Shown in pieces: positions 1-37,841 of a stretch of 41,507 bases of DNA. Below the pieces are notes generated by a model, which did not search any database, was not told where the DNA came from, and saw only the letters and a program-made list of their open reading frames with translations. Within the stretch, counting starts at the first letter, position 1. Every line of letters begins with the position of its first letter. The translations under genes were made by a program, and so were the position numbers. Source of the stretch: Muribaculaceae bacterium. Lineage in GTDB: Bacteria; Bacteroidota; Bacteroidia; Bacteroidales; Muribaculaceae. The stretch lies in the NCBI GenBank assembly GCA_017620885.1, contig JAGAUF010000020.1, positions 1 through 41,507 of the forward strand, read 5' to 3'.

Positions 1-1816
1 GACGCGTAAAAGCGCCTCCACCCACGGGTTGAGCGGCCAAAGCACGCACCGTAGCCCCTGCCGACGGCATTTCCGACACTGCGACAAACGGATTTCCCCT
101 CGGGCACGTCACAATATGCTCAGGATCATCCTCCCACACTGCCTCAGCTATCGCCGCCGGCATCTGGCACGGCACGCTCATCCGGTCGAGCGAAAGCGGA
201 ACTCCGTCCGCCGCCGCATAGCAGGCCGCATCTTCCCCCGACACAGGCGTCAGTGGCAAACGCACCATATTTCCCAATCCGTTAGGGCTCTGGAAATAGA
301 TGCGCATCTCTTCGGCACGGCTGTCGCCATACCACGCCAACGGCCGCAAATCAAGACCCTCCATAGCTGTCTGCGAAACCACCGTCAGCACTCCGCGTCG
401 CGTACGGATATCGACCTCCACGCGTCCCGCCCCCGCGAATTTTCGGCTGCCGGCAGACGGCGACGGCATCTCGGGCGATTTAAGACGCCTGCCGGTATTG
501 CCAAGATGCAGAAAACCGTCGTGCGACGTCATCGCAGCCGCACGCCCGGGCACTCTCTCTGTCACCTCTTTTGCCGGATAGCTCAATTCTCTCGAAGCCA
601 CATTCCCTACGCTATACTCCGTCTCTTCGCTGTCATACGGAATCACGGCGCACAGACGCATCCCGCTTTCCACCAATTCTTCCGTCATTGTCGCCGTATC
701 GCGATGATTCAGCTTGACAGTCAAATTGTTGCCGTCGGTAATCTGACGGAAATAGACATCGCCGCCATTTTCGCCTATGCGATAATCATAGCAATCGGAA
801 ACCCACACCTCAAGCTGCTTTACGATTCCCTTCCACGACGTCGAGGCCACCGCGCCCTCTTTACGCTTAACTAAAATCTTATAACCGCTCACAGAGACAG
901 TCGCCGCCGATGCGCTTTCATAGCCGTTAGAGCCAAGTCTAAGCGCAAACGAAACTTCGGTCCCGATGTTTCCACGCACGCTATCACCGACTACCTGCGG
1001 AGCCGTGAGAGCAGCCATACTCCCGTCCCAAAGACGCATCCCTATACGGACGGCAGATGGCGACGTGCGCAGCCCTCCGGCCGACGCTATGCGCATAGCC
1101 GACGCTATCCCCTCCGCGGCGGAAGCCGTAAGCCGATCAGCTATCGCGGAGTCTATACCGGGGCGAAAATCCGTTACCGGTTTGCTGAACGTCATTCCGG
1201 CGGCTGTCGCCGTAACTGCCGGTTGCTCTATCTCTTCCACACTCAGATCGGGCATCTCCGGAAGAGACCCAAAAGCCGTATAAAGTCCCGTAGAACTGTT
1301 ATAGCTCAGGTAAAAGAGCGTATTGTCGGCAAGGCGCAGCACAGTGAAATCACCCACACGGGCACCCTCAATCACACGACGGTCCAATTCGGCCACAGTG
1401 CGATTGACGTGCGTGGCCGATCCAAACGCATCAATGCTCACCGACTCGCGCAACACTCCCGCATCGCTCTGAGTGAAGATGTGCGTCCGGCCGCCCCTCT
1501 CCTCCGTGAAAACGGGACGATAAGACACGGTAGCAAGCACCTGAGGTCCGTTTACGGGTCGCAACACGTCGCCGTCGCGTCGCAAATTCTCCGCGTACGC
1601 CGTCGTGCCCAACGAAGTAGGACGCGACGTGGCCTCCCCCTTCATTTTTCTCCTCACCGCACTACGCTGCACCGTGCTCACACGCATCATGCTCGCCGGC
1701 AATTCTATCTCCCGACGGAGATATGTGCCCACCCTCCCGATTGTGCTCTTGCGCCCCGGTCCGCGACCGCGCCTCACGACGCTCCCTGCTGCTCTATTTT
1801 CATTTCCCTGAATCAT
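1..1816 (-). CDS. Large phage-like structural protein, 3' end outside the window (tail nozzle/stabilisation-like)
   Basis: An open frame runs without a stop from the ATG at 1814-1816 to the window edge, 605 codons, so the protein is C-terminally incomplete here. It is the last visible gene of the minus-strand head operon, 59 nt after the portal-like gene. The N-terminus is very basic (many Arg in the first 65 residues). It is followed by beta-rich, repetitive text of the type GDFTVLRLADNTLFYLSY, then Ala/Ser-rich and further beta-rich segments. No signal peptide or membrane segment is seen. Position after portal and connector genes, together with the propeller-like strands, suggests a podovirus-type tail nozzle or stabilisation protein. 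That is inference; I do not recognise a named family with certainty. Plus-strand frames over this region are Arg/His-rich shadows. Confidence 0.68.
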   Translation of the reverse strand, partial: MIQGNENRAAGSVVRRGRGPGRKSTIGRVGTYLRREIELPASMMRVSTVQRSAVRRKMKGEATSRPTSLGTTAYAENLRRDGDVLRPVNGPQVLATVSYRPVFTEERGGRTHIFTQSDAGVLRESVSIDAFGSATHVNRTVAELDRRVIEGARVGDFTVLRLADNTLFYLSYNSSTGLYTAFGSLPEMPDLSVEEIEQPAVTATAAGMTFSKPVTDFRPGIDSAIADRLTASAAEGIASAMRIASAGGLRTSPSAVRIGMRLWDGSMAALTAPQVVGDSVRGNIGTEVSFALRLGSNGYESASAATVSVSGYKILVKRKEGAVASTSWKGIVKQLEVWVSDCYDYRIGENGGDVYFRQITDGNNLTVKLNHRDTATMTEELVESGMRLCAVIPYDSEETEYSVGNVASRELSYPAKEVTERVPGRAAAMTSHDGFLHLGNTGRRLKSPEMPSPSAGSRKFAGAGRVEVDIRTRRGVLTVVSQTAMEGLDLRPLAWYGDSRAEEMRIYFQSPNGLGNMVRLPLTPVSGEDAACYAAADGVPLSLDRMSVPCQMPAAIAEAVWEDDPEHIVTCPRGNPFVAVSEMPSAGATVRALAAQPVGGGAFTR

Positions 1817-1820
1817 AATA

Positions 1821-1832
1821 TAGTTTTTTAAA
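1821..1832 (-). repeat. Copy 1 of the TTTAAAAAACTA start-codon-proximal element
   Basis: Read on the minus strand, TTTAAAAAACTA ends 4 nt before the ATG of the large structural gene. The match to the copy before the scaffold-like gene continues upstream for 11 more bases with one mismatch (1821-1843 compared with 5800-5822). It may act as an A-rich ribosome-binding or translation-enhancing leader, since no Shine-Dalgarno sequence is present. Confidence 0.6.
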
Positions 1833-1875
1833 TGGTTAAATTTTTTACTTTAAATTTCGGTTAATTATTTGATTG

Positions 1876-3249
1876 TCAGTCGGTAGCCGACCGACTGTTT
1901 CCCCTCAGCATCTCATCCCTCCTCTCCGTGAATCCGCGGAATGTGGACAAAAGGTCATAGACCGACACCGTGGCCTGTTCCAGTTCCCTCGCCATCATCT
2001 CGGCACCCTTCGCCGTACTGCCGCTCCCGCGACTCGACGCATTGGTACCGCTGATTTCATCGAAAAGTTTCAGCTGCGTCTGAAGCATCTCCGTGGCTCC
2101 GCTCACCGTCCCCGACGTATTGAGTTGATAGGGCATAATATTCTTCGATGTTCGGCGGAACGGCAAAATTCCGCCCGGCTGCGCCCATATACGCCGTACG
2201 TCGTTCCACGTCATGCCGCGAGGCAGCTGATCCGTCGGAAAGAGGACGATACCTTTGGCCGACGCACGCAGCACGTCGTCAAGCAGCATAACGAGATTAT
2301 TGACATATTTCTGCTGATCTATCACGTCATCGACCAACGAACGCACCTCGCCGTCCACCATCGGATACAGCGCCATCACGAAGGGATGATTCTCCCCCTT
2401 GCCATACGCGAGCACCTCACCGCCGGGCGCAAGCCAAAAATATTCCCAACCGTCATCCAGATCAGGATACCATCGCAATTCCTTCCCTCCGCGCTTGCGT
2501 CGCCTTGCGTTCATTTCCCCGATGCGTCTGAGCGTCTCCTCGTCGTAATCTCCCGTGGCGTATGCCCCGCGCTCCGGATCATGGATGCGCAACACCGGCG
2601 TGCATCCACGGCGCCATACCTCTATCACGCGCCACATCCCGGGCGACATCGCGTGAAAGAAATCGCTCTCGGCACCACAGCAGGGCGACGCCGACGCATT
2701 CAGTCGCAATGAGGAATTTTCTGATGCCGCACCCTGATAAAGGGCGTGTATCTCCCCGAATCGTACCGCGTCGCCTGCCGAAAACCGCCTCAACACCTCG
2801 GCAGGACGCATATCATGGAGCATTCCGACAAACGAACAGTCGTCGCCATCGCTGCGCTCAAACCGGCGGAAAAACACCCTCGCCGGCCCAACCGGAGAAA
2901 TCTTTCCCCTCTCCACACGCTGTATCGCGCAGCCGGATATCAAAAATTCTTCAAAGGTGCGCGCATCAATATCGGTAGCCACGCCCACCTTCTCATCACG
3001 CTGCAGGTGCCTCCATCGCCCTACGATGCTCTTCACGAGCTGACGGATAAGATTGTTGCATAGAGGAACGCGTCCGCGGTCGAGCCATCCGGCCTCTTCG
3101 CTCACTACACGCCCGTCGCTCAGCCTATGCCTGTCGCTCCATTGCCTCCCGAACGTAAAATCCTTGCAGCGACGCCGACGCCGACGAAATTCATCCAGCG
3201 ACGTCCACGCCTCAAGCGCGTTATCCAGTAATTGTTTTTCCCTTCTCAT
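1876..3249 (-). CDS. Phage portal protein (P22/crAss-like podovirus type), candidate
   Basis: 457 aa. The portal forms the dodecameric ring at the capsid vertex through which DNA is packaged. The middle and C-terminal parts look like the portals of Bacteroidota podoviruses. A long helix reads LVDDVIDQQKYVNNLVMLLD (about residues 300-320). It is followed by a PTDQLPRGMTWNDVRRIW stretch, a wing-like GGILPFRR turn and then the helix LQTQLKLFDEISGTNASSRG, typical of the stem/crown boundary. The N-terminus is Arg-rich and helical. The start ATG at 3249 lies inside the end of the upstream gene (29-nt overlap), which implies translational coupling. The neighbours are a capsid-like gene upstream and a large tail-like gene downstream. 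The length is shorter than P22 gp1, about right for compact portals. The family call rests on pattern recognition and context. Confidence 0.62.
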   Translation of the reverse strand: MRREKQLLDNALEAWTSLDEFRRRRRRCKDFTFGRQWSDRHRLSDGRVVSEEAGWLDRGRVPLCNNLIRQLVKSIVGRWRHLQRDEKVGVATDIDARTFEEFLISGCAIQRVERGKISPVGPARVFFRRFERSDGDDCSFVGMLHDMRPAEVLRRFSAGDAVRFGEIHALYQGAASENSSLRLNASASPCCGAESDFFHAMSPGMWRVIEVWRRGCTPVLRIHDPERGAYATGDYDEETLRRIGEMNARRRKRGGKELRWYPDLDDGWEYFWLAPGGEVLAYGKGENHPFVMALYPMVDGEVRSLVDDVIDQQKYVNNLVMLLDDVLRASAKGIVLFPTDQLPRGMTWNDVRRIWAQPGGILPFRRTSKNIMPYQLNTSGTVSGATEMLQTQLKLFDEISGTNASSRGSGSTAKGAEMMARELEQATVSVYDLLSTFRGFTERRDEMLRGNSRSATD

Positions 3250-3826
3250 CGAAAAATGTCTCTATAAGTGAAGAATCAAAAATATATTCCCCTTCGGGAG
3301 GTCTGACGACAGCCATCACCGTTGCCACGCGATGTTCGGGTCCGCCTGACTGTCCCGTCAGCGGTGGGATCCTCTGTGCGCTCCAGTCGGGATGACGGTC
3401 CATGCCGTACACCTCGATGCGCCCGTCGCGACATACGTATGCGTGGGGATTATCGGGAGTGGAAGCCAACGCCCTGACCGTCTCTTTGGTCAGGGCGCGG
3501 TCGTCGACCGCCGGCAGCCCGTACACTGTCTTGTCCCAATCGGCCATACGCACGGCATACGCGCGCACGCACCTCTCGGGCAATGTCAGCAGCGCCCCAT
3601 TCGCCGTCAGCGGATTCACCTCGACTTCCTGAGCGACATCCTCGTGGGGAAGGAGCTTCGGATCGGCCGTCTGAAGCAGTTTCTCATACCAGACGCTCAC
3701 CTCCTCGTGAATCACGCGGTTGAGTTCCGTCTTATCCTCGATACCTCCATCGACGGGCAGCGAGTGCCATCCGTTGCGAAGATACCACCATTCGGCCATC
3801 TCATCCTCCGTATATGTCTTTCTCAT
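3221..3826 (-). CDS. Head-tail connector/ring-like protein, candidate (unknown family)
   Basis: 201 aa, encoded between the capsid-like and portal-like genes. It starts 19 nt after the capsid stop and overlaps the portal start by 29 nt. The sequence is soluble, acidic and has no signal peptide. A central stretch, LTLPERCVRAYAVRMADWDK (about residues 80-99), resembles the conserved core of small podovirus adaptor/ring proteins. The C-terminal half is beta-rich with Pro/Gly turns. A role joining portal to tail, or closing the head, is inferred from gene order and size. A head decoration protein is an alternative. Confidence 0.5.
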   Translation of the reverse strand: MRKTYTEDEMAEWWYLRNGWHSLPVDGGIEDKTELNRVIHEEVSVWYEKLLQTADPKLLPHEDVAQEVEVNPLTANGALLTLPERCVRAYAVRMADWDKTVYGLPAVDDRALTKETVRALASTPDNPHAYVCRDGRIEVYGMDRHPDWSAQRIPPLTGQSGGPEHRVATVMAVVRPPEGEYIFDSSLIETFFDEKGKTITG

Positions 3827-3845
3827 GGTCTTCCGCAGTTAAAGG

Positions 3846-5057
3846 TTATTTCCCTATTACTCTCGCGTGCGCCTCGGGATAGCGAAGCGTGAGGCAGCTC
3901 GCCTCGGTCAGGACAGTGGCCTCCGTGTTGCGCTGACCGCTGCCGCGAAGGTCGAGAGTCTCGGCCGTGAAGGGGATGAACACGTGTTTCTGAATGTATT
4001 CGGGATCCACGATGATACCGTTGCGCGGCATTCCCATCGCATCGAAGACGTCGGAGAATATCACATACAGGCGTCCGAACTTCGAGCATAGCTCGGAGAA
4101 ATCAATTCCCCAGAGAGTCACCTGATCTCGCGCCGTGATGACACGTTGCGCGTCAATCTTATTCAGCGCCGAAATCAGTTCGCTGCCCGCTATCAGAATC
4201 TTGCGGCGACTGCCGCTATTTTCCGTGAACGCTCCGCGCAGAAGATCCACCAGCGCTTTGGAATCGAATTTTGCCAAATCCACATTCAGCTCCTTGCCGG
4301 CCTGCTGCCAGATACCCTGCGTCAGCATGACGGTCTCGTTCTTGTTGGGATCAAAGAGCTTCATGCGGGTGCCGAAAAGAAATTGCTTCTCCATGCCGAG
4401 ACGCATGTCATAAATGGCCGCCTCCTGCTGGTCGGTGAAATCCCACCCGATTTCCTTATGGCTCATCTTCATTATCACGCTCTGCTCGATCTGCATCTTG
4501 AAAATCTGGCAGAAATTCGTGTTCTTGCGAGGCAGAACGGAGAACTGCGGCGACTGCACATCGAGCTGCGTAGCGGCGCGTCCCATGCGTATCAGCTTGT
4601 CGCCCGGGGCAGGAATCGTTGTCGAATCGGTAATGCACGTCAGCGTTTCTTCGTTCTTCGCCGTCACATACGCCGTGTGCATCTTGCCGTCGGCGGTTTT
4701 CCATGCGATAGTCTCGCTCGGCTCGACGAAGGTGGTGTCCGTAAAGAGCGTACACTGCTGATAGGGCGCTTCCACGGCTGCGTTTGCCGTCGCCTCGGAG
4801 TCGTCGACCGTCGCGCTGTCGATGCGCGTGTCCACCGAGTAATAGTCCACTTCCATCGAGTCGACCGGGCGCACATGACCCAGACGGCTTATCTGGTCGA
4901 GAGGTGTAGCCATAGGGCGTATCTTGACCACTGCGCTGTCGATTGCATTGCGAAGCAACTCGGGCGATGCCTGTTGCGCCAGTTCTGTTGTCAATGGGGC
5001 GTTGCTCACATGTTTGCCACCGGCCTGTCCATTCACAAAATTTGCTTGATTGCTCAT
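3846..5057 (-). CDS. Major capsid protein, HK97-fold/SU10-like (DUF5309-like), candidate
   Basis: 403 aa. It would form the icosahedral shell. The N-terminal arm (1-45) is polar and low in structure. It is followed by the helix LLRNAIDSAVVKIRPMATPL, and a beta-rich insertion at about 110-165 with many Thr. The central part (about 175-225) reads PRKNTNFCQIFKMQIEQSV then EIGWDFTDQQEAAIYDMR, the pattern of SU10-type capsid proteins where subunits bind partner chains. The C-terminal domain holds LIAGSELISALNKI and GRLYVIFSDVFDAMGM, as expected for the A-domain and spine. No cleavage or signal peptide is obvious. It lies 109 nt after the scaffold-like gene and has its own copy of the TTTAAAAAACTA leader 5 nt before the ATG, which would suit high-level translation of a capsid gene. 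Confidence 0.62.
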   Translation of the reverse strand: MSNQANFVNGQAGGKHVSNAPLTTELAQQASPELLRNAIDSAVVKIRPMATPLDQISRLGHVRPVDSMEVDYYSVDTRIDSATVDDSEATANAAVEAPYQQCTLFTDTTFVEPSETIAWKTADGKMHTAYVTAKNEETLTCITDSTTIPAPGDKLIRMGRAATQLDVQSPQFSVLPRKNTNFCQIFKMQIEQSVIMKMSHKEIGWDFTDQQEAAIYDMRLGMEKQFLFGTRMKLFDPNKNETVMLTQGIWQQAGKELNVDLAKFDSKALVDLLRGAFTENSGSRRKILIAGSELISALNKIDAQRVITARDQVTLWGIDFSELCSKFGRLYVIFSDVFDAMGMPRNGIIVDPEYIQKHVFIPFTAETLDLRGSGQRNTEATVLTEASCLTLRYPEAHARVIGK

Positions 5058-5062
5058 ACTGT

Positions 5063-5074
5063 TAGTTTTTTAAA
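5063..5074 (-). repeat. Copy 2 of the TTTAAAAAACTA start-codon-proximal element
   Basis: On the minus strand TTTAAAAAACTA ends 5 nt before the capsid ATG. The upstream bases (TTCAAACA) are a looser match to the TTAACC part seen in copies 1 and 3. Confidence 0.6.
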
Positions 5075-5166
5075 TGTTTGAATATTTTTGAATTTTTAAT
5101 TGAAAAATCTGATTTCATCTGATGTTAGCACACCTCAATCGCGTCCGAGAGCGAAAAGCATAGCCG

Positions 5167-5793
5167 TCACGCGTCCCATACCGATGCTCTGCGCCGAAAT
5201 ATCCTCTCGATTTTCTCCTGCTTGGCGGCTGTCTTATCGTCCTCCTTGAAACCTTCCCACCGCTCTTCGATTGCCTCGTTTTTTCCACGGATATAAGCCT
5301 CTCGCACAGCCTCCTCCTGACTCGCGTCGCCATTGTCGGAAGAAACTTGCTTATCGGAAATGGACGCCGATTGCTGCTTCTCCTTTGCATTCTGTTTCGC
5401 CGCTTCAAGGCTTGCAAGCGCCTCTTCCAACGAGGAGGATTGTCTTATCGCCGCCCAACGTTCCTCAAGCGCTGACACGAATTTCTCGGAGAGCACTTCG
5501 GCTATCTCGTCGCATATCTGACGATAAGCCTCCTCCTCATTCACCTCAAGGTCGCCATCCGGATTTGCCGTCACAACCGGTGTCTTTGGCTCGGAACCAT
5601 CCGTAGCCGGCTCCTTCCTCTTCTTTTCCTCTTGTTGATCTGATTTTGGTGATGACTTTTCCGATTTCGCCACATTGCCGTCCGACGACGACTCCAAATG
5701 TCCCCGTCCCTCTTTATGGAGTTCGACCCCATTCTTGGGCATGGCGGATTTCTTCTCCGACGCTTTAAGCGCCACTGTTTTTTCCTTATTCAT
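5167..5793 (-). CDS. Highly charged scaffold-like protein of the head module
   Basis: 208 aa, the first gene of the head operon. Residues 1-85 are rich in Lys, Glu, Ser and Asp and look disordered. Residues 90-145 and 150-205 are strongly helical and likely coiled coil (EEAYRQICDEIAEVLSEKF, EEALASLEAAKQNAKEKQQ), ending in a basic ERIFRRRASVW tail. This composition and the place directly before the capsid gene are typical of internal scaffolding proteins, whose basic C-terminus contacts the capsid. No Ser-protease motif is visible, so a fused maturation protease is not supported. Scaffold function is inference, since charged coiled coils are not specific. Confidence 0.55.
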   Translation of the reverse strand: MNKEKTVALKASEKKSAMPKNGVELHKEGRGHLESSSDGNVAKSEKSSPKSDQQEEKKRKEPATDGSEPKTPVVTANPDGDLEVNEEEAYRQICDEIAEVLSEKFVSALEERWAAIRQSSSLEEALASLEAAKQNAKEKQQSASISDKQVSSDNGDASQEEAVREAYIRGKNEAIEERWEGFKEDDKTAAKQEKIERIFRRRASVWDA

Positions 5794-5799
5794 TTTCCT

Positions 5800-5811
5800 T
5801 AGTTTTTTAAA
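5800..5811 (-). repeat. Copy 3 of the TTTAAAAAACTA start-codon-proximal element
   Basis: On the minus strand TTTAAAAAACTA ends 6 nt before the scaffold-like ATG. With the predicted transcription start near 5823-5825 it makes up nearly the whole 5' leader of the operon mRNA. Confidence 0.62.
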
Positions 5812-5829
5812 CGGTTAAATTTTGTACTG

Positions 5830-5860
5830 CAAAATTACTATATAAAATCTAAAATACCAA
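5830..5860 (-). promoter_or_regulatory. Promoter of the phage head operon
   Basis: Minus-strand -33 TTG at 5858-5860, exactly 20 nt, then -7 TAATTTTG at 5830-5837. This is a full match to the Bacteroidota housekeeping sigma consensus, so the operon can be read by the host polymerase without a phage factor. Confidence 0.75.
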
Positions 5861-5954
5861 ATATAAGTGTAGAAAATATTTGAATTATTTTATTGAAAAT
5901 TTGCAATTAGCTGAACATCAATGAATTTTGCCCCGAAAAAAATCTGCCGTTTCC

Positions 5955-5985
5955 TTGTCTGTCTCGGATATTTACCTTAATTTTG
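5955..5985 (+). promoter_or_regulatory. Promoter of the glucosaminidase gene
   Basis: TTG at 5955-5957, 20 nt, TAATTTTG at 5978-5985. The expected start site falls at or within a few nt of the ATG at 5991, so the mRNA may be leaderless. The pair is divergent from the head-operon promoter. Confidence 0.7.
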
Positions 5986-5990
5986 CACGT

Positions 5991-6914
5991 ATGAATCGGA
6001 CGAAAAAAATCTTCACGCGGCGTTTCATCAGATTGCGCTGCATTCTTGTCGCGCTCATTATCGGCGTGACACTTCATCTTCGCGCCGATTATTACAGCGA
6101 TTACATCGATCTTTACGCTCCATTAGCCGTCGAGCAAATGGAGAAATACGGAATCCCGGCCTCTGTCACTCTCGCGCAGGGTCTGCTCGAATCAGCCGCC
6201 GGACGATCCACGCTCGCCACGGAAGGCAACAATCATTTCGGCATCAAATGCCACTCCGACTGGAAAGGCCCCACGATGCTCCGCGACGATGACGCCCCCG
6301 ACGAATGTTTCCGCGTATACGATTCGGCTGCCGGTTCTTTCACCGACCATTCCCTCTTCCTCTCTAAGAAGCGCTATGCGTCCCTCTTCTCACTCGACCC
6401 CACAGATTACGCTGGTTGGGCGCGCGGGCTGAAGCAATGCGGATACGCCACCGACCCCAACTACGCCGACCGCCTGATTACCATCATCGAGCGTTACGCG
6501 CTGTATTCCTACGACTCACATTCAGCCGGAGAGGGGCACGAAATGGCCGAATTCATCATCTCAAAACTCGCTGACACGCATCCCATTCGTCGTGCCCGCG
6601 GGCTGCACTACGTCGTGGCTGCGCCCGGCGACACTTACGGAAAAATCGCCAAGGAATTTCACATATCCAAGAAGGATCTGATGAAATATAACGACGTGAA
6701 ACACGACGGTGAAATAAAGCCGTGGCAGGAAGTTTATCTTCAGAAAAAACTCGACACACCACCCGACGGCATCACGAAGGCAACTATCGGCGAGGGAGAG
6801 TCGATGCACTCCATATCGCAGAGATTCGCCATTAGCCTCGATATGCTCCGCGCCCTCAATCCCGATGCGAAAGATGAAGCGGGAACGGTGTTAAGATTGA
6901 CAAAAAATAAATAA
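5991..6914 (+). CDS. Secreted N-acetylglucosaminidase (FlgJ/LytG-like) with two LysM domains
   Basis: 307 aa from the ATG at 5991, chosen because an upstream TTG at 5928 lies before the promoter -33 element. A basic N-terminus and hydrophobic core ([12 protein letters not shown]) form a signal peptide or anchor. Residues about 30-160 form a mannosyl-glycoprotein endo-beta-N-acetylglucosaminidase domain: [19 protein letters not shown] with the catalytic-type Glu, then NHFGIKC and [15 protein letters not shown]. LysM-like repeats follow at about 206-252 and 263-305. The enzyme should cut peptidoglycan in the periplasm. It stands next to, and divergent from, phage head genes, but such enzymes are common Bacteroidales housekeeping proteins, so a lysis role for the particle is speculative. 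Confidence 0.85.
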
Positions 6915-6962
6915 CCTAAAAAATAATAACGGGCTTTCAAGCCTTTGAAAATATAGAAAGAT

Positions 6963-8066
6963 ATGTCATTAAAATGTGGTATAGTCGGCCTTCCCAACGT
7001 CGGCAAATCTACTCTTTTCAACTGTCTCTCCAATGCAAAAGCGCAGTCGGCCAATTTCCCCTTCTGCACAATTGAGCCAAACGTCGGTGTCATCTCCGTG
7101 CCCGACGATCGTTTGACAAAGCTCGTGGAAATGTGCAATCCCCGCTCCACCGTCCCTGCTACGGTTGAGATCGTCGACATCGCCGGCCTCGTCAAAGGAG
7201 CCTCCAAGGGTGAAGGTCTCGGCAATAAATTCCTCGCTAATATCCGCGAGTGCGACGCTATACTCCACGTGGTCCGCTGCTTCGATGATGATAACGTGAC
7301 GCACGTAGACACCACCGTAGATCCCGTGCGCGACCTCGAAATAATCAACTATGAACTGCAGCTGAAGGACCTTGAGACGGTAGATGCCCGTCTCGCCAAA
7401 ACCCTCAAGGCAGCTCAGACAGGCGGCGACAAGCAGGCCAAGATTCAGGCTGCCGTCCTCCAGCAATATAAGGACGCCCTCGAAAGCGGACAGCCCGCAC
7501 GGTCGGTAGAGTTTGAAACAAAAGATGAACAGAAATATGCCCACGAACTCTTCCTGCTCACCAATAAGCCCGTTATGTACGTCTGCAATGTAGATGACGA
7601 TTCCGCCGTCGACGGAAATCATTATGTAGACGAGGTGCGCAAGGCTATCGAGGGAACGGGGTCAAACCTCCTGATCGTAGCGGCCAAGACGGAGAGCGAA
7701 ATCGCCGAACTCGACACCTTCGAGGAGCGCGCCGAATTCCTTGAGTCGATCGGCCTGAAGGAGTCGGGGGTAGCACGCCTGATCCGCGCCGCTTACGCCC
7801 TGCTTGACCTCCAGACATATTTCACCGCCGGACCCGACGAGGTGCGCGCATGGACCTTCATCCGCGGCACGAAAGCTCCGCAGGCTGCCGGAATCATACA
7901 CACCGATTTTGAGAAAGGATTCATCCGCGCCGAGGTCATCAAATATGATGATTTCGTAACCCTCGGATCGGAAAACGCCGTCAAGGAAGCCGGCAAAATG
8001 GCGGTGGAAGGTAAGGAATACATCGTGCAGGATGGCGATATAATGCATTTCCGCTTCAACGTCTGA
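6963..8066 (+). CDS. ychF: Redox-regulated ATPase YchF (Obg-family)
   Basis: 367 aa, full family length. YchF is a cytosolic ATPase that binds ribosomes and is linked to translation and oxidative-stress control. The P-loop GLPNVGKS is at residues 9-16, the switch/Walker B segment is [14 protein letters not shown], and the G4-like motif is VCNVDDD rather than NKxD, the change that gives ATP preference. The C-terminal TGS domain includes [31 protein letters not shown]. It starts 48 nt after the glucosaminidase stop and may be cotranscribed with it. Confidence 0.97.
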
Positions 8067-8101
8067 CGCCTCCCGCTTGTTATTCTCAGAAAACACACAG
8101 T

Positions 8102-8599
8102 ATGAAAGAGCTTAAAATCACTACCCTGATAAAAGAAGCGGCTTACTCCGAGCTGTCGGCTGAAGACCGGCAGCTCGTAGACGCTGCAAAAGAGGCCACA
8201 AAACGGTCGCTGGCCACATACAGCCGCTTCCACGTAGGCGCCGCCATCCTTATGGCCAACGGCGAAATCGTGACGGGCGCCAATCAGGAAAATGCCGCGT
8301 ACCCCTCCGGCACGTGCGCCGAACGCACCGCCGCCTACTATGCCTCCGCTCAATATCCCGGCGTCGCCATGAAGAAACTTGCCATCGCTGCTTGGACGCG
8401 TCTCCACGCTCCGGCCGACGCCCCCGACGAAGAGTGTTTCCAATCCGACCCCATCTCTCCCTGCGGAGCTTGCCGGCAGGCTCTTCTCGAATACGAATCC
8501 CTCTACGGCCCGATAGAAGTAATCCTCTACGGCGCCGACCGTATATATATCCTCCCCTCGATAGCCGCACTCCTCCCTCTCACATTCACCTCATTCTAA
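8102..8599 (+). CDS. cdd: Cytidine deaminase
   Basis: 165 aa homotetrameric-type enzyme that deaminates cytidine and deoxycytidine in pyrimidine salvage. Zinc ligands are Cys72, with the catalytic Glu74 in TCAERT, and Cys121/Cys124 in PCGACRQ. The FHVGAA substrate segment is at 43-48. It lies 35 nt downstream of ychF on the same strand. Its end overlaps only false upstream frames of the next gene. Confidence 0.96.
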   Translation: MKELKITTLIKEAAYSELSAEDRQLVDAAKEATKRSLATYSRFHVGAAILMANGEIVTGANQENAAYPSGTCAERTAAYYASAQYPGVAMKKLAIAAWTRLHAPADAPDEECFQSDPISPCGACRQALLEYESLYGPIEVILYGADRIYILPSIAALLPLTFTSF

Positions 8600-8688
8600 G
8601 GCCCCGTTCCCCAATATTTGTTAAAGCCGGGGAATGGAGTCTAAGATCCTATCTCTCAAGAAATTTTGCACTTATAGAGGCAAGCTCT

Positions 8689-9648
8689 ATGGAAGAATCC
8701 GAAGATAAAAATATATTAGAACCTATTGGCAACAGAGATAATTCAGCACTGATGCCAATAGAAAATCTGATTCACTTTATCCGCGGTCAACAAGTTATGA
8801 TTGACAGCGATTTGGCTCGCCTGTATGGAGTGGAAACACGTGTCCTCAACCAGGCAGTGAAACGTAATATTGAAAGATTCCCTGCAGATTTTATGTTTCA
8901 ACTTAGCAAAGAGGAATCTCGGAACTTGATATCACAAATTGCGACATCAAGTTCAAGATCACAAAATGTGACCTTGAACGTTGAGAGAGGAAAGAATATT
9001 AAGTATCTGCCTTATGCGTTCACTGAAAATGGAGTTGCCATGCTTAGTAGTGTGCTTCGATCAAAAACAGCTATCGAGGTCAACATCCGTATTATGCGGG
9101 CTTTTACTGCCATGCGTAGTTTCCTGATGAATAATGCTCATATGTTCAAAAGGCTTGAAACCATAGAGCATAATTATTTGCTTGTAAATCGCCATCTATC
9201 TGAACATGACAGGAAATTTGAAGAGGTGTTGTCGCGCCTTGACGATAAGGATTCCGAGCCGATTGAGGGATTTTTCTTTGAAGGGCAGATATTCGACGCA
9301 TATTCGCTGATTTCCGATTTAATCAGGAAAGCAACAAGTAGGATCGTGCTGATAGACAACTATGTGGATGACCGCGTATTGAAAGTCCTGACAAAACGTG
9401 AAGACGGTGTTTCTGCGACAATTTATACCGACCCGCGCCATTCCCAAATAAGCAATGACCTACGCCGACATAATGCCCAGTATCCACGAATAGAAGTAAG
9501 GCATTGCACGAATGTGCATGACCGGTTCCTGATAATCGACGATACCGTCTACTTCATCGGTGGCTCAATTAAGGATCTTGGCAAAAAGATTGTCGCATTC
9601 AGTCAGATGCAGCAAAATCCCGACAATATTCTGAATAAACTCAAATAA
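8689..9648 (+). CDS. ORF6N-domain DNA-binding protein with phospholipase-D-like C-terminus
   Basis: 319 aa from the ATG at 8689; the frame is open further upstream but the extension is Arg/Ser-rich shadow of cdd. Residues about 20-140 are an ORF6N domain (LIHFIRGQQVMIDSDLARLYGVETRVLNQAVKRN in outline, then FPADFMFQL and the YAFTENGVAMLSSVL segment), a phage-related DNA-binding module of the KilA-N/antirepressor group. A helical linker follows. The C-terminal part, with FEGQIFDAYSLISDLIRKA and HDRFLIIDDTVYFIGGS, resembles a PLD-type fold with one His-based motif. Base composition drops relative to cdd, consistent with transfer. The function of the fusion is unknown to me; related genes are common in Bacteroidales. 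Confidence 0.85.
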   Translation: MEESEDKNILEPIGNRDNSALMPIENLIHFIRGQQVMIDSDLARLYGVETRVLNQAVKRNIERFPADFMFQLSKEESRNLISQIATSSSRSQNVTLNVERGKNIKYLPYAFTENGVAMLSSVLRSKTAIEVNIRIMRAFTAMRSFLMNNAHMFKRLETIEHNYLLVNRHLSEHDRKFEEVLSRLDDKDSEPIEGFFFEGQIFDAYSLISDLIRKATSRIVLIDNYVDDRVLKVLTKREDGVSATIYTDPRHSQISNDLRRHNAQYPRIEVRHCTNVHDRFLIIDDTVYFIGGSIKDLGKKIVAFSQMQQNPDNILNKLK

Positions 9649-31075: not shown

Positions 31076-32032
31076 TCAGCTCAGCTCAAGCATACGTTCT
31101 ATAGGCTTGATGGCGCGAGCGGCGATTTCAGGATCCACTGTAATTTCCGGCTTTTCATCGCGCAGACAGCGATACAGCTTCTCCAATGTATTCATCTTCA
31201 TATATTCGCAATGATTACACTGACATTCGCTGTCTTCTGCAGGAGCGGCAATAAAGTTCTTTTCCGGACATTTTCTGCGCATTTCAAAGAGTATGCCGCT
31301 CTCTGTCACTACAATGAAATCTTTAGCCTCCGAATTGCGCGCATAATCGAGCAGGGCGGCGGTGGAACCTACCTTGTCGGCTATAAGCTGCAAAGGACGA
31401 CGACACTCGGGATGTACAAGAATTTTGGCGCCCGGATTAGCTTCTTTCAGCTTTGTTATCTTTTCGAGGGAGAAACGGTCGTGAACATGGCAAGCTCCGT
31501 TCCAAAGCAGCATATCACGTCCTGTCACGCTATTTATATAGCCGCCGAGGTTCTTGTCAGGACCGAATATTATTTTCTCATCCTTAGGCAGCGAATCTAC
31601 TATTTTGCGCGCATTGCCCGATGTAACCACAATATCGGTCACGGCCTTTACCGCCGCAGAAGTATTTACGTAACTTATAACGGTATGATCAGGATGTTCA
31701 CGTGTGAATTTCTCAAACTCCGCAGGATCGCAGCTGTCGGCCAGCGAACATCCCGCTTTCTCATCCGGTATAAGCACTTTTTTATCCGGACAAAGTATCT
31801 TAGCCGTCTCACCCATAAAATGCACTCCGCACATCACTATCATCGGCGCATCTGTCTTAGCAGCTTCACGGGCCAAAGCCAGAGAGTCACCTATATAATC
31901 GGCTATTTCCTGAATCTCATCTATCTGATAATAATGGGCCATTATCAGCGCATTTTTCTCCTTTTTGAGTCGAAGAATCTCGCGGCGCAGTTCTTCCTTC
32001 GACGCGGGCATCGCAGTTTTTGATGAATCCAT
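31076..32032 (-). CDS. nadA: Quinolinate synthase A
   Basis: 318 aa. Condenses iminoaspartate with DHAP in de novo NAD synthesis, using an oxygen-sensitive [4Fe-4S] cluster. Landmarks are IMAHYYQIDEIQEIADYIGDS, MCGVHFMGETAKIL (Cys68), HPECRRP and the C-terminal CQCNHCEYMKMNTLEKL. It is the only NAD-synthesis gene in the window. Confidence 0.97.
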   Translation of the reverse strand: MDSSKTAMPASKEELRREILRLKKEKNALIMAHYYQIDEIQEIADYIGDSLALAREAAKTDAPMIVMCGVHFMGETAKILCPDKKVLIPDEKAGCSLADSCDPAEFEKFTREHPDHTVISYVNTSAAVKAVTDIVVTSGNARKIVDSLPKDEKIIFGPDKNLGGYINSVTGRDMLLWNGACHVHDRFSLEKITKLKEANPGAKILVHPECRRPLQLIADKVGSTAALLDYARNSEAKDFIVVTESGILFEMRRKCPEKNFIAAPAEDSECQCNHCEYMKMNTLEKLYRCLRDEKPEITVDPEIAARAIKPIERMLELS

Positions 32033-32487
32033 TTTTTATATTTATATCTTTTATAAAATTATTACTTTAAAATTTAAATAACAACAATAATAGCTGTCGA
32101 TAAAAGTAGATAAAAAATTACCTCAAAATTTGCTTTTCTGACTTATGGGTATTTTCTATATGCCTTATCTACACGTCGTCTACATACCTTACAATTGATT
32201 TTCAGGTCAATGCAAATGTTGTATACACGTTGTAGACAACTGCAAAGTTAATAAATTATTGCGGATAATAGGGTGTTTATATGTAGAAATATATGTAGTA
32301 AACGTCCTGTTTTTTGAACATAGCGCAGTTCTTTATGACGATAAAGGGTCCTGTCCGCTTTATTTATTTTTTAGTCTACATACTCTTCAACACGTTATAT
32401 ACACGTTTTTCAACAGAAAATGTATACTTATCTACAAGTTATCTACAGATTGAAAACAGACGTATATTACCTATATAATATGTAAAT
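32033..32487. other. AT-rich intergenic region with DnaA-box-like repeats (possible origin or operator array)
   Basis: No convincing gene. TTATCTACA, one base from the DnaA box TTATCCACA, occurs three times in the same orientation at 32165-32173, 32428-32436 and 32439-32447. The last two are spaced 11 bp, one helical turn. Weaker relatives are TTATATACA (32395-32403), TAGTCTACA (32372-32380), TTGTAGACA (32230-32238) and inverted AGTAGATAA (32105-32113). The left end (32033-32115) is extremely AT-rich, like an unwinding element. An operator array for nadA is the other reading. Confidence 0.4.
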
Positions 32488-32919
32488 TTAAATTTTTTCT
32501 TCCAGTCTCCGGTAGAGGTCGGGATCATGGGTGGAGATATATCGACGTGAAATATCGATGATGCGCCGGCAAAGTTCTTTGTCGGCCATACCTATATGAG
32601 TGAAATCTTTGTTGAGGCGAAGACGGAGCGAAAGCCAAGAGTAAGCGTTATATCGTGACCGTTTCAGCTTGTTCTGCCAGATGGCGTCAAACCATAAATG
32701 TGCCGAATGTCGCAGACGTCTCAATTCAGCATCAGCTACACTCCCTGTGGCACGGTCTGTGCCGGGATAGCAATTCACGTATGCTCCGCACTGAGGACAT
32801 ACACGTACCATCCCGTAATGGCGCCCTTTATATACGGTGGCGCTGTCCTTTAATTCTGTGGCGCAATGGCAATAAGGACATTGCAAACCCTTATTTATCA
32901 GATGTAGTTCTTTCTCCAT
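32488..32919 (-). CDS. DUF3268-type zinc-finger protein
   Basis: 143 aa. The N-terminal zinc ribbon is CPYCHCATELKDS followed by RVCPQCGAYVNCYPGT, two CxxC pairs about 25 residues apart. The C-terminal helical part reads LWFDAIWQNK then RSRYNAYSWLSLRL. The function is unknown. The start overlaps the end of rsmA by 29 nt, so it is translated from the same mRNA. Confidence 0.8.
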   Translation of the reverse strand: MEKELHLINKGLQCPYCHCATELKDSATVYKGRHYGMVRVCPQCGAYVNCYPGTDRATGSVADAELRRLRHSAHLWFDAIWQNKLKRSRYNAYSWLSLRLRLNKDFTHIGMADKELCRRIIDISRRYISTHDPDLYRRLEEKI

Positions 32920-33709
32920 CTGATGTTATGATGCGCGTTATCTCAATGAATTCTTCTACACTGAGTTGTTCGGGACGTTTCTTTAATATTTCGTCTTGTA
33001 AAAGGGGAGAGCCGGCAGGGATAAGCGGTCCGAGAGAATTACGGAGCGTCTTACGGCGTTGGCCGAAAGCTGTCTTTACCACTGTCTTGAATTTTTTCTC
33101 GTCCACACCGAGAGTGCTGCGGCTATTGCGCACTATGCGTATTACTCCGCTTTTCACTTTCGGCGGTGGAGTAAACACATTCTCGTTCACAGTGAAAAGA
33201 TATTCGCAATCATACCATGCCTGCAAGAGCACGGATAGAATACCGTAGGCTTTTGAACCGGGAGGTGAGCAAAGACGTTGCGCCACCTCGCGTTGAAGCA
33301 TACCGGCAGCCACAGGAATAATATCCTTGTAATCGAGTATTTTGAAGAAAATCTGCGATGAAATATTATAAGGATAATTGCCTATGAGGGCAAAATGACG
33401 CCCGGAAAAAATGTCACGAAGATCAAGGGTAAGAAAGTCTGCTTCAAGCACATTAAGCTGTGGCATGGTTTTGTGAAGATATTCCACACTTTCCGTATCT
33501 ATTTCCACGGCTTTTATCTCCCGCCCCGATTCAAGCAGAAACTGCGTCAGCACACCCATACCGGGACCTATCTCAAGGATAGGTAGATCTGCGTATGCAG
33601 GATTGCCGACTTCCTGTCCGGAGACGGTGTCGGCTATTCTGCGGGCTATGTTCAAATCATTGAGAAAATGCTGTCCGAGGACTTTTTTGGCCCTTACTTT
33701 CTGTGACAT
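32891..33709 (-). CDS. rsmA: 16S rRNA (A1518/A1519-N6) dimethyltransferase
   Basis: 272 aa. Dimethylates two adjacent adenines near the 3' end of 16S rRNA during late 30S assembly. The landmarks are KKVLGQHFLNDLNIA, the SAM motif ILEIGPGMGVLTQFLL, the NYPYNISSQIFFKIL catalytic NxPY and FTPPPKVKSGVIRI. It lies 31 nt downstream of mscL. Confidence 0.97.
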   Translation of the reverse strand: MSQKVRAKKVLGQHFLNDLNIARRIADTVSGQEVGNPAYADLPILEIGPGMGVLTQFLLESGREIKAVEIDTESVEYLHKTMPQLNVLEADFLTLDLRDIFSGRHFALIGNYPYNISSQIFFKILDYKDIIPVAAGMLQREVAQRLCSPPGSKAYGILSVLLQAWYDCEYLFTVNENVFTPPPKVKSGVIRIVRNSRSTLGVDEKKFKTVVKTAFGQRRKTLRNSLGPLIPAGSPLLQDEILKKRPEQLSVEEFIEITRIITSDGERTTSDK

Positions 33710-33740
33710 TTATATATATGATGTATTTTTTCTTTTAAGA

Positions 33741-34166
33741 TTATTTCTTCTCTTTGAGAAGGTCGCGGATTTCCGTGAGAAGAACTTCCTCCTTGGTGGG
33801 TTCGGGAGCGGCGGCCGGCGCTTCTTCTTCTTGCTTTTTGAATTTCATAATCACGCGAAGAGCGACGAAAATACTCAGAGCTATGATGAAGAAATCCACG
33901 ATGTTCTGGATAAACAGACCGTAATTTATGGCCACTTCCTCTACGGCTGCCTGTGTATCCGTGGCTGCCTGTGCGTGAGTAACGATATATTTCAAATTCT
34001 TATAGCCTCCACCGGGGATGATGAATGAGATAGCAGGCATAAGAATATCATTGACAAGCGACGAAACGATTTTGCCAAAAGCACCGCCGACGATAACGCC
34101 GACTGCCATATCCAGAATATTACCCTTGAAGGCAAACTCTTTAAAATCTTGTAAAAATTTTCCCAT
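33741..34166 (-). CDS. mscL: Large-conductance mechanosensitive channel
   Basis: 141 aa pentameric inner-membrane channel that opens on osmotic downshock. The N-terminus KFLQDFKEFAFKGNILDMAVGVIVGGAFGKIV carries the first helix with the pore constriction. The second helix is NIVDFFIIALSIFVALRVI. The C-terminal helix is charged (TKEEVLLTEIRDLLKEK). A TATATTTG-like -7 box lies upstream but without a matching -33 TTG. Confidence 0.96.
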   Translation of the reverse strand: MGKFLQDFKEFAFKGNILDMAVGVIVGGAFGKIVSSLVNDILMPAISFIIPGGGYKNLKYIVTHAQAATDTQAAVEEVAINYGLFIQNIVDFFIIALSIFVALRVIMKFKKQEEEAPAAAPEPTKEEVLLTEIRDLLKEKK

Positions 34167-34310
34167 ATTGCAATATTTTTGAGTTTTTAATTGTTACAAA
34201 TATAGCTGTCAATATGCAGTAGAGAAGAGAATACCGTTCCTTGAAAGGAAATCTATTAAGAAAACACTTAAAAAGAAAAAACGGTTTTTCTCTTCTTGAG
34301 AGATTATGAT

Positions 34311-34341
34311 TTGCAAAGTTAAAAAAAAAATAGTAAATTTG
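34311..34341 (+). promoter_or_regulatory. Promoter of gapA
   Basis: TTG at 34311-34313, 20 nt including a long A-tract, TAAATTTG at 34334-34341. The leader is about 70 nt. Confidence 0.75.
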
Positions 34342-34361
34342 CGGTCTAATCCGGTATTTAA

Positions 34362-35426
<1,065 letters not shown>

Positions 35427-35545
35427 TTTTCAGAAAAAATTAAACTTTCTTTTTTATAAAATTAGTCTTTTAACAATAAAGATTTTTTGAAAATCAAAAT
35501 GTTAGAAAAACAAGGCTGATAATTATAGAAAGTAACGTGTATATT

Positions 35546-35586
35546 TGCGTGTCGCTATATTTTATAGCGGCACGCAATCTTTTTAG
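35546..35586 (+). terminator. Intrinsic terminator after gapA
   Basis: 14-bp stem TGCGTGTCGCTATA paired with TATAGCGGCACGCA (one G-U) at 35546-35576, then ATCTTTTTAG. A TATATTTG box overlaps its left edge (35540-35547) but has no TTG at the right distance. Confidence 0.75.
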
Positions 35587-35885
35587 GGTAAATGTTTTTA
35601 CATTTGTCAATAATCAAATATTGTCTCTCTGAAAAATCAAAATGTCAATATTACTGTCTATTTTTATTGCTTTACGGGTTTAGATGCTTTACATTTGTAA
35701 AGTTTCTTAGGTTATTATAGGTTTATATCAGTTTAAAATTTTACAAATAGTAAAAATGGCGGTATAGATTATAAAAAAGTAGCTATTTGTAAAATTTATA
35801 GCGTAAAAATAAACATTTTTCAAATATTGAGAAAATTTTACTATCACGGAACACGAAAAATATCAAAAAATTTATTGAGAAAAAC

Positions 35886-35916
35886 TTGGAATTTAAAAAT
35901 TCTTTTTGTAATTTTG
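35886..35916 (+). promoter_or_regulatory. Promoter of the terminase leader/ncRNA
   Basis: TTG at 35886-35888, 20 nt, TAATTTTG at 35909-35916. It is the only full consensus promoter found in the 939-bp gap between gapA and the terminase gene. The sequence between the terminator and this promoter (35590-35885) is AT-rich with no gene seen. Confidence 0.74.
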
Positions 35917-35921
35917 TACTC

Positions 35922-36260
35922 GCTAACAAATGCAGACCCGCTGTGTGGTTTAAGGTGATGATTGTGTTACTTTCATAAATGGGTCTGCTATAAGGTATCT
36001 CCCGGATTGTGAAATTCTTAAAGTGCCTTGAATTTTGCTTTATGAAATCGAAAGATTGTTGTGCGTGATGTACAGTTTTCTTCTTAGAAACTCAGGCGCA
36101 AGGTGAGTTTCTATGTATTTAATATGTTTGGTTGAATAATGGTACATAGAATCGTAGTTGATTCATCTAAGTTTCCGCCGATTTTTTAATCCGGAAACTC
36201 AGCAGATAAGCGGTGTATTCGTGACGAATACGCCGCGTCTGTTTATAGATGATGATCTAT
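35922..36260 (+). ncRNA. Candidate structured RNA or long leader upstream of the terminase
   Basis: Starts about 6 nt after a consensus promoter and ends some 105 nt before the terminase ATG. Inverted repeats in order: GCAGACCC/GGGTCTGC (35932-35939, 35981-35988); TAGAAACTCA/TGAGTTTCTA (36085-36094, 36104-36113); AGTTTCCG/CGGAAACT (36170-36177, 36192-36199); a 12-bp stem GCGGTGTATTCG with loop TGA (36210-36236, one G-U); and ATAGAT/ATCTAT (36245-36260). GAGTTTC at 36105 can pair with GAAACTC at 36087 or at 36194, allowing alternative folds. No long frame exists. It is not recognisable to me as tmRNA, RNase P RNA, SRP RNA or a known riboswitch. It could be an independent Bacteroidales ncRNA or a regulated 5' UTR. 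Confidence 0.5.
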
Positions 36261-36365
36261 GAGCCGGTTCTTGCCATCATCTCAAAACAGTATTGATAAG
36301 GGAAAAACAAGATACAGAAAACAAAATAGATAAATTGCATAATTTGAAACATAAAAATATTAATC

Positions 36366-37841
36366 ATGGAAAAAGACTATTCAGAAGATTTCCTCAGCTG
36401 GGCTGAGGATTGTGTGAAAATCGTAGACAAACTCTCCGGCGCATCGGTGCCTTTCGTGCCCAACGCGCCGCAGCGTCGTGTGCTCGACGTCATGGAACGT
36501 CAGCGACGCGCCGGACGCCCTATCCGCCTCATCATGCTTAAGGCGCGTCAATGGGGCGGATCGACGCTCATTCAGGTCTATATGGCTTGGATGCAACTCG
36601 TGCGCCACACGGGATGGAATTCCGTAATCTGCGCGCACGTAAAAGACGCTTCAGCCGGAATACGCGGTATGTATAGCCGGCTGCTGCGCGAATACCCTGA
36701 CGAACTGAAAACCGGATCGTCGAAGGGGTGGACGCTCACACCTTACGAAAAGACGCAGGGTGTGGTGGAAATCGCCGCGCGCGACTGCCGTATCGCACTC
36801 GCCACGGCCGGTGCGCCCAATTCCGTGCGCAGCTCCAATTTAGCTATGGCTCACCTCAGTGAAGTGGCATTCTGGGGAGATGGCGAGGCGGATGCGGCCG
36901 AAGAGATAGTGCGCACCGTCAGCGGTACTGTGGGCCGTACCGCCGATTCTCTAATAGTGATGGAATCCACCGCCAACGGGAAGGACAATTACTTCTATCG
37001 CGAATGGAAGAGAGCCGAGGCAGGCGAAAGCGACAAGGAACCGGTTTTTGTGCCGTGGTACGAAATAGAGATGTATAGCCGCGAGATTACTCCGGATGAG
37101 CGAGAAAAATTGTTCGCCTCTTTCGATGAGTATGAACGTGAGCTGATTGCTCGTGGCGTTTCGGCCGAGAGCGTAGCTTGGTACCATGACAAACGTCGCG
37201 AATACCCGACGCATACGGCTATGATGGCCGAATTTCCTTCTACGCCCGAGGAAGCTTTCTCTACTTCGGCTTCCGATACACCGTTTCGTGAGGAGGATTT
37301 GCCCGAATTGACCGACAGGGCGGAAGAAGGATTGCCGCTGCTTGTCGTGTTGCCGGCAGCATCGCTCGACAGGCGCGCTATGGAGACTTTCGTGATAAAT
37401 GACGGTATAGTGACTGCCACAGGTTCCCTCCCTCTCGGAAATACGGTGAGCGAGATGCTCGGTGAGGCGAGGAAGTGGGGCATTGATCGCGACGCCATAA
37501 TGTGCGTGGCTGCTCCTCCTGACAGCGCCGATTACGGTCACGCCGTATGGTTGGCTGAGAAAGCGATTGAGAAGGATGTGGAGCTCTTTCGCAGCGATGA
37601 CGAGGAAATCGTCATTACGCTCGACAACGGCTGTATTTCGCGTATGATTGATTTGCATCACGAGCGTATGGACGAAGGTCGCGTGCGCGATACTGACCCC
37701 GATGCCCGTGAAGATTATCTGCTTTTCCGTTATGGCGCTCCGCAGCATACTCCCCGCATCCTTGCGCGTCTTGTCGCCCTTACGGTTGCTGATTCCCTCG
37801 ACGTTCCGATAGATTGTTCTGACCTTCTGCCGATAGCATAA
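36366..37841 (+). CDS. Phage terminase large subunit (packaging ATPase), isolated
   Basis: 491 aa. TerL is the motor that pumps DNA into a prohead. The ATPase half is clear: an N-terminal segment FVPNAPQRRVLDVMERQ, Walker-A-like KARQWGGST at 59-67, and Walker-B-like HLSEVAFW with Ser165-Glu166 (family usually Asp-Glu). The coupling motif MESTANG is at 199-205, and the family signature AEFPSTPEEAF follows at about 283-293. Past residue 300 the nuclease region lacks the usual early DPA-type Asp motif and a clear second acidic motif, so it is degenerate, replaced or too divergent to read. No small terminase or other phage gene lies within 5 kb on the right side, nor in the housekeeping genes to the left. 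GC-rich, host-like codon use resembles the head module at 1-5793. No TTTAAAAAACTA element precedes it. Confidence 0.78.
   Translation: MEKDYSEDFLSWAEDCVKIVDKLSGASVPFVPNAPQRRVLDVMERQRRAGRPIRLIMLKARQWGGSTLIQVYMAWMQLVRHTGWNSVICAHVKDASAGIRGMYSRLLREYPDELKTGSSKGWTLTPYEKTQGVVEIAARDCRIALATAGAPNSVRSSNLAMAHLSEVAFWGDGEADAAEEIVRTVSGTVGRTADSLIVMESTANGKDNYFYREWKRAEAGESDKEPVFVPWYEIEMYSREITPDEREKLFASFDEYERELIARGVSAESVAWYHDKRREYPTHTAMMAEFPSTPEEAFSTSASDTPFREEDLPELTDRAEEGLPLLVVLPAASLDRRAMETFVINDGIVTATGSLPLGNTVSEMLGEARKWGIDRDAIMCVAAPPDSADYGHAVWLAEKAIEKDVELFRSDDEEIVITLDNGCISRMIDLHHERMDEGRVRDTDPDAREDYLLFRYGAPQHTPRILARLVALTVADSLDVPIDCSDLLPIA

Follow-up and report, generated by a model that had tools for sequence, protein, structure and literature searches.

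Gene transfer agents (GTAs) are well studied in few lineages only, and VSH-1 of Brachyspira and BaGTA of Bartonella are domesticated particles with host-controlled genes. The tail type of RcGTA, found in Rhodobacter capsulatus and its alphaproteobacterial relatives, differs from the short nozzle tail considered here. In one recent account, GTAs are spread over several dispersed operons without autonomous replication, and lateral transduction is recorded for Bacteroides along with GTA-like packaging for Bacillota (PMC12946183). Here we analyse a 41,507-nt stretch of DNA from a Muribaculaceae bacterium (the window), a complete contig from a 2.08-Mb assembly of 118 contigs, which carries a phage-type head operon and, about 31 kb away, a terminase gene. 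We consider it likely that both loci belong to a domesticated short-tailed phage particle system of Bacteroidales, which would be old, passed on mainly by vertical inheritance and built on a GTA-like architecture.

Like RcGTA, the window system keeps phage-derived structural genes in the chromosome; compared by description only, it differs in ancestor and phylum and in having an SU10-type capsid and a short nozzle tail. The large terminase (TerL) of RcGTA has an ATPase and a nuclease domain (PMC6854486) and groups with headful phages (PMC7947584), whereas the window-type terminases described below have no nuclease. FpGTA I of Faecalibacterium prausnitzii, as presented in PMC12946183, is likewise from a gut bacterium and likewise a compact capsid, portal and terminase set without replication genes, but it forms one 10.5-kb operon, belongs to Bacillota and occurs in metagenome-assembled genomes with GTA-like packaged DNA. 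At E 1e-5 the window capsid matches just 3 of 50,697 phage records, those of the Bacteroides phages BF1-TP2, BKO1-TP3 and BS-TP4. The capsids of these three are 35-37% identical to it, and their terminases, about 38% identical over the ATPase, stand at the top among the phage matches listed. BF1-TP2 has a scaffold, capsid and adaptor and a divergent terminase and portal, in the order seen in the type B loci introduced below. These phages differ from the window system in their 64-68 kb genomes, and BF1-TP2 also in its replication, antirepressor and very long genes and in a terminase with a nuclease (annotation of bases 1-50,000). No GTA-like particle of Bacteroidales or Bacteroidota was found described in the literature searched (titles and abstract openings, with preprints and most subscription journals outside), and we provisionally regard one of Bacteroidales as new.

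Particle genes and predicted folds

The head operon (2-5793, minus strand) encodes a scaffold-like protein, a capsid protein, an adaptor, a portal and a nozzle (Table 1). The original prediction had described a head operon split from its terminase gene by ordinary chromosomal genes, and Pfam bears this out: YchF, FabH-like, MTHFR, MetH, SerRS, SAICAR synthetase, UbiE, NadA, RsmA, MscL, GAPDH and others lie between the loci, and ordinary chromosomal genes lie beyond both. The scan covered 40 of the 104 open reading frames (ORFs) of at least 80 amino acids (aa) in the window, picked to cover each coding stretch. Among the ORFs scanned there was no integrase, replication or terminase family between the two loci and no integrase or primase anywhere in the window, in line with what the original prediction had noted. 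Since no integration or replication gene was found, the window is not a self-propagating virus as seen. The scan did not return a prophage set (integrase, replication, repressor and lysis genes with structural genes), the left contig end being open; nor did the scanned ORFs include a mobile island with integrase and replication module of the kind that defines a phage satellite, relatives being judged on this point by gene clusters. We also considered a binning artefact and discarded it, capsid, housekeeping genes and terminase all being on one contig.

Structure models identify the nozzle as a podophage tail nozzle and the adaptor as a portal-tail adaptor, two identities that go beyond the original prediction. 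PHROGs gave no function for these two or for the scaffold-like protein, Foldseek by itself was weak for the adaptor, and the scaffold-like protein had no Pfam or PHROGs family match at 0.01 or better. Thirteen genomes carry a terminase of the window's type (the window-type group); the 12-genome comparisons below leave out G065, which has no capsid. In 7 of these 12 (the window, G069, G034, G004, G030, G064 and G086) a charged ORF stands ahead of the capsid gene, and in the other five no scaffold-like ORF could be clearly assigned. In the window-type group the nozzle gene belongs to the head operon. Given the nozzle and adaptor folds, the gene set would therefore suffice for a short-tailed, DNA-injecting particle, and the particle genes are homologous to head, portal, connector and terminase genes of tailed phages, as those of a GTA should be.

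Co-occurrence, inheritance and selection

A profile of window-like, genus-like and phage capsids (A5) finds the capsid in 79 of the 101 genomes of the genus (39 of 42 high-quality ones), 70 of them with a single match; the 79 include G099, whose sole match is phage-type. The window terminase matches 83 of the 101 (38 of 42 high-quality). Counting strong terminase matches, 73 genomes have both genes, 6 the terminase only, 6 the capsid only and 16 neither (Fisher p 2e-9), with the terminase matches of G014, G054, G055 and G092 (E 3.9e-8 to 1.3e-4) scored absent, G008 scored terminase-negative (a wider profile gives 1.8e-62) and the capsid-negative status of G098 and G100 deduced. Across the family, the capsid is present in 182 of 198 genomes (134 of 140 high-quality; 29 of 30 genera), as a single match in 158 of the 182, and the terminase in 181 (133 of 140 high-quality); both genes occur in 172, the terminase only in 9, the capsid only in 10 and neither in 7 (Fisher p 7e-5). 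Across the order, 22 of 295 genomes have the capsid, the same 22 and two further genomes with partial matches have the terminase, and 271 have neither (Fisher p 3e-31). Tallied per family, the 22 positives comprise four from the window's family, 17 from six others, each contributing two or three genomes, and the low-scoring match G301. This spread over the family and further families is also new beyond the original prediction.

Within the window-type group, trees of the particle genes largely follow that of rpoB: of nine rpoB splits among the 12 genomes, the capsid shares eight, the nozzle seven, the terminase and portal six each and the adaptor four, a level reached by 6 of 20,000 random trees. 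Sharing six of nine, the terminase gene therefore tracks much the same history though it is often located elsewhere. The ratio of nonsynonymous to synonymous substitution rates (dN/dS) is below 1 wherever computable, which is the purifying selection expected of a GTA: 0.02-0.12 for the capsid (four of five pairs, the fifth saturated), 0.11-0.12 for the ATPase part of the terminase (two pairs), 0.14-0.18 for the portal, 0.30 for the adaptor (one pair) and 0.21-0.42 for the nozzle (three pairs), with 0.05-0.55 for flanking chromosomal genes; these values are approximate because several pairs are saturated at synonymous sites. Within the window-type group, then, the genes are chromosomal and largely follow vertical inheritance, as in a GTA, with no replication or integration gene among the window ORFs scanned; at greater depth congruence is partial, and on rpoB the hosts do not form one clade.

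Two other kinds of copy occur in the same genus. The window capsid, here called type A, shares 45-52% identity with 14 capsids from more distant lineages (A5) but no more than 17-20% with the type B capsids found in its own genus. In the tree, the four type B terminases tested branch outside the rest of the family, and type B could have come in later, replacing the older genes from the phage lineage. A phage-type capsid copy is present in 8 of the 101 genus genomes, beside another copy in seven and alone in G099. In phage-type loci the portal, where there is one to be seen, measures 587-680 aa, and single ORFs reach about 5,500 aa. Close to the G058 copy, the one examined for this, are genes for an exonuclease, a helicase, replication initiation and a DnaC-like loader. 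The phage-type relatives of BF1-TP2 are L180-L188, L157 and L121 (in G007, G058, G021, G042, G097, G040, G099 and G095). They are sporadic and different-looking, and they are an internal control, in the same hosts, for the presumably domesticated copies.

Among viral contigs, the window capsid alone as query found no relative, and A5 gave 12 matches: L308-L311 and L319 resemble cellular loci, L314-L318 resemble phage-type copies, and L312 and L313 were placed in neither class. L308-L311 and L319 are short IMG/VR contigs filed as viral, with genes about 39-83% identical to those of cellular loci. Because of these matches, virus catalogues probably hold pieces of the particle system.

Window-type terminases have lost the nuclease

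The original prediction took the particle genes to be intact. For the terminase this is true of one half: the ATPase (residues 1 to about 303) is complete, with KARQWGGST, HLSEVAFW and ESTANG present, and the remainder lacks nuclease motifs, a loss that the original prediction had not noticed. In an alignment of 14 nuclease-type terminases that includes BF1-TP2 (A4, L122 numbering), D487, D496, E548, D653 and D654, which we take to be the RNase-H-like nuclease residues, are invariant in 14 of 14. All five are kept in 41 of 42 further terminases (33 family genomes and 9 from six other families), G116 being ambiguous at one. They are absent in 13 of 13 window-type terminases, in which the ATPase motifs are unchanged. 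Window-type terminases range from 306 to 502 aa: six stop at 306-369 aa, and in the other seven (480-502 aa) the C-terminal part has diverged. Profile alignment of the window-type with the nuclease-type terminases stops just short of the nuclease core, and dN/dS indicates faster evolution in the C-terminal part than in the ATPase part.

A profile of the full terminase gave no extra match, and so no separate nuclease piece, in 10 of the 13 window-type genomes, although a strongly diverged nuclease would escape it. G065 and G095 have a second, full nuclease-type terminase, and G018 has a nuclease-part fragment near a short portal-like piece, which may be a prophage remnant. Judged by sequence, a separately encoded nuclease is thus disfavoured for the group. 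The two terminases of G065 (L107 and L108, one window-type and one nuclease-type) occur in an 89%-complete assembly with no capsid match.

TerL normally cuts DNA to begin and end packaging, according to PMC7947584 and PMC6854486. In a GTA the terminase would both cut and translocate DNA, headful-style. Window-type terminases do not have the nuclease residues for cutting, and for this reason we call the window locus GTA-like and not a GTA. With the nuclease half gone and the motor half conserved, DNA ends would have to be made otherwise or the cargo would have changed. It is possible, if doubtful, that the motor has been uncoupled from cutting and that the window-type group loads DNA or another linear cargo with ends from another, host-controlled enzyme.

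The system is known here from its genes, whose anatomy suggests a GTA-like working as follows. A host promoter would drive the head operon, and with the scaffold as a guide the SU10-type capsid would assemble on the portal. There the ATPase of the distantly encoded terminase could dock and pump DNA in; adaptor and nozzle would then seal the head and provide a short tail for DNA ejection. The likely cargo would be host DNA, the transfer of which such a particle might achieve. In the rest of the family, a terminase with nuclease could cut this DNA headful-style; in the window-type group the ends may come from another enzyme or from existing breaks, or else the cargo may have changed or packaging may be decaying.

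Locus surroundings and alternative readings

Split loci are common. The distance between capsid and terminase genes is 31-32 kb in G571 and G538, both single-contig genomes, is about 40-45 kb in G309, G545 and G516 and 13 kb in G369, and reaches 0.13, 0.96 and 2.5 Mb on contigs of G223, G107 and G155. A recurring family layout has scaffold, capsid, adaptor and portal genes in one place and nozzle and terminase genes in another (G132, G113, G110, G108 and G155); in G122 (L302) the head genes and the nozzle-terminase pair are together. Chromosomal neighbours recur on both sides, as the original prediction had suggested checking; this recurrence is an observed listing, the relatives' flanks having been scanned in part. 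In 6 of 12 window-type genomes LysM-glucosaminidase and/or cytidine deaminase genes are at most five genes away from the head operon, and they also lie near the L053 capsid gene. GAPDH adjoins the terminase gene in the window, G069 and G086 and is five genes away in G018; MscL is near it in the window, G069 and L215 (family f88), and both GAPDH and MscL are near a capsid gene in L085 and G087 (L177). Six genus genomes have a rimP-nusA-infB-HPPK group (Pfam) adjoining type B loci, and in L056, L082 and G123 (L206) this group lies close to a type A capsid gene.

Table 1. Particle genes, promoter and chromosomal landmarks of the window.
Feature	Position	Strand	Basis or remark
Scaffold-like protein, 208 aa, about 39% charged	5167..5793	-	Position and composition; putative role
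Major capsid protein, 403 aa, type A	3846..5057	-	Pfam SU10_MCP 1.7e-47; phrog_26635 2.4e-73
Portal-tail adaptor, 201 aa	3221..3826	-	Structure model
Portal protein, 457 aa	1876..3249	-	Pfam P22_portal 9.5e-15; phrog_156 1.6e-31
Tail nozzle, open at contig end, 605 aa present	2..1816	-	Structure model; 652-844 aa in relatives
Terminase large subunit, 491 aa	36366..37841	+	phrog_2 1.1e-14
GAPDH, chromosomal landmark upstream of terminase gene	34416..35426	+	Pfam
MscL, chromosomal landmark	33741..34166	-	Pfam
Glucosaminidase-LysM, YchF and cytidine deaminase, chromosomal landmarks beside head operon	5928..8599	+	Pfam
Bacteroidales-type promoter (TTTG, spacer, TAnnTTTG) before head operon	5830..5861	-	Exact match

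The perfect host-type promoter claimed for the head operon is indeed an exact match to TTTG-spacer-TAnnTTTG, the Bacteroidales-type promoter motif, but it is not special to the operon because the window holds nine exact matches against 0.68 expected from shuffling. Of 12 window-type genomes, 8 have an exact promoter in the 1 kb upstream of the capsid gene, and in seven of these it stands before the scaffold-like gene; the background in the same loci is 0.089 per kb and strand. The terminase genes share no exact promoter, 1 of 13 having one upstream.

A gene for a glucosaminidase-LysM protein (5928-6914, plus strand) points away from the head operon and neighbours it in several relatives as well; the protein is probably a host cell-wall enzyme (autolysin) that could also serve as a lysis enzyme for particle release. 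About 2.5 kb off the head operon, ORF 8314-9648 (plus strand) has an ORF6N domain (PF10543, 3.7e-34), which is common in phage antirepressors; its true start is probably further downstream, since as drawn it overlaps the cytidine deaminase gene. In other families, a gene of 1,114-1,257 aa lies near the capsid gene in L200, L202 and L203 (families f68, f28 and f88), and its L074 counterpart has partial matches to phage tail or receptor-binding families (best 2.5e-13); by sequence it is possibly a particle fibre there. Candidates for a small terminase are a gene of 82-101 aa immediately before the terminase gene in L216, L217, L219 and L220 (families f22, f68 and f60) and one of 126-163 aa (cluster c6) near many type B terminases. 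Near the type B loci of L115, L125, L128, L175 and L178, and in the phage-type L180, L184 and L187, there are one to three genes of about 150-190 aa in tandem (cluster c8), often accompanied by a gene of about 190-220 aa (c54); these are possible tail or fibre parts.

Several observations weigh against an old, vertically inherited particle system. Neither gene was found in 16 of the 101 genus genomes, and most members of the genus have the very divergent type B capsid and terminase. Many family loci show scaffold and capsid only within the DNA examined, and no fibre or small terminase was identified in the window-type group. On an rpoB tree of 26 genomes (leaving out G017, whose rpoB is in two pieces), window-type hosts do not form one clade: type B hosts (for example G078, G094, G076, G037 and G009) stand among them, some deep nodes having support of 0.04-0.56. 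Losses, replacements or transfer within the genus are therefore needed. Deep trees of 33 genomes from many genera and families (leaving out G102, whose examined terminase is a phage-like copy) are partially congruent, the terminase sharing 10 of 30 splits and the capsid 9 of 30, with a random maximum of 3; of 12 well-supported splits they share 6 and 5. The correlation of capsid with rpoB distances, 0.418, was not above the best permutation, 0.433.

That the window holds an ordinary prophage, or two prophage remnants lying some 30 kb apart by chance, is nevertheless very improbable. The phages BF1-TP2, BKO1-TP3 and BS-TP4 do carry both capsid and terminase, and 8 of 101 genus genomes have a phage-type copy, but the window's genes occur in most family genomes and mostly once (158 of 182), their trees are congruent within the window-type group, selection on them is strong, housekeeping neighbours recur, and no integration or replication gene appeared among the 40 ORFs scanned, whereas the phage-type copy of G058 does have replication genes nearby. 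Two unrelated remnants, which the original prediction had named as the main alternative, are ruled out by capsid-terminase co-occurrence and matching trees. A phage satellite or capsid-forming chromosomal island would explain a small capsid-gene set without a full phage genome, and yet with dispersed loci, congruent window-type trees and neither integrase nor primase in the ORFs scanned, we give it almost no credence.

Domestication for a task other than gene transfer, such as a killing particle (PBSX-like elements are of that kind) or an anti-phage device, is unlikely but deserves some weight. The nozzle and adaptor are the fast-evolving members of the set (dN/dS 0.21-0.42 and 0.30), as in an arms race, and loss of the nuclease would suit a cargo other than headful-cut DNA. 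The portal, adaptor, nozzle and conserved ATPase are, however, what loading and ejecting DNA needs, the nuclease residues are kept elsewhere in the family, and in the parts of the flanks scanned the recurrent neighbours included neither a recognisable toxin gene nor a recognisable fibre gene. Rather improbable, in turn, is a GTA in decay within the window-type group, having lost its nuclease first with the rest not yet eroded. The loss of nuclease residues in all 13 terminases, their variable length, their faster-evolving C-terminal part and the retention of a terminase without a capsid match in G065 would all be explained; strong purifying selection on capsid and ATPase between well-separated species (dS about 0.8-3.2) would be unexpected long after function was lost. 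The reading that we prefer, a domesticated short-tailed particle system with GTA-like architecture, agrees with the original prediction of a GTA-like or other domesticated capsid system, and the checks proposed there, on co-occurrence (in the genus and in 22 of 22 capsid-positive genomes of the order) and on selection, which proved strong and not relaxed, came out in its favour.

If motor and cutting are in fact uncoupled, a domesticated particle would have acquired a new way of packaging within a GTA-like family that is old and Bacteroidales-wide. Related hosts with the two terminase types, one having the nuclease and the other lacking it, provide a natural experiment on the taming of a phage motor. 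Other families also have the loci in single-contig genomes, so the idea can be tested directly where a cultured member exists. A particle system in 182 of 198 family genomes might contribute host DNA to gut virus fractions and would be a new, general candidate route of gene flow in the gut.

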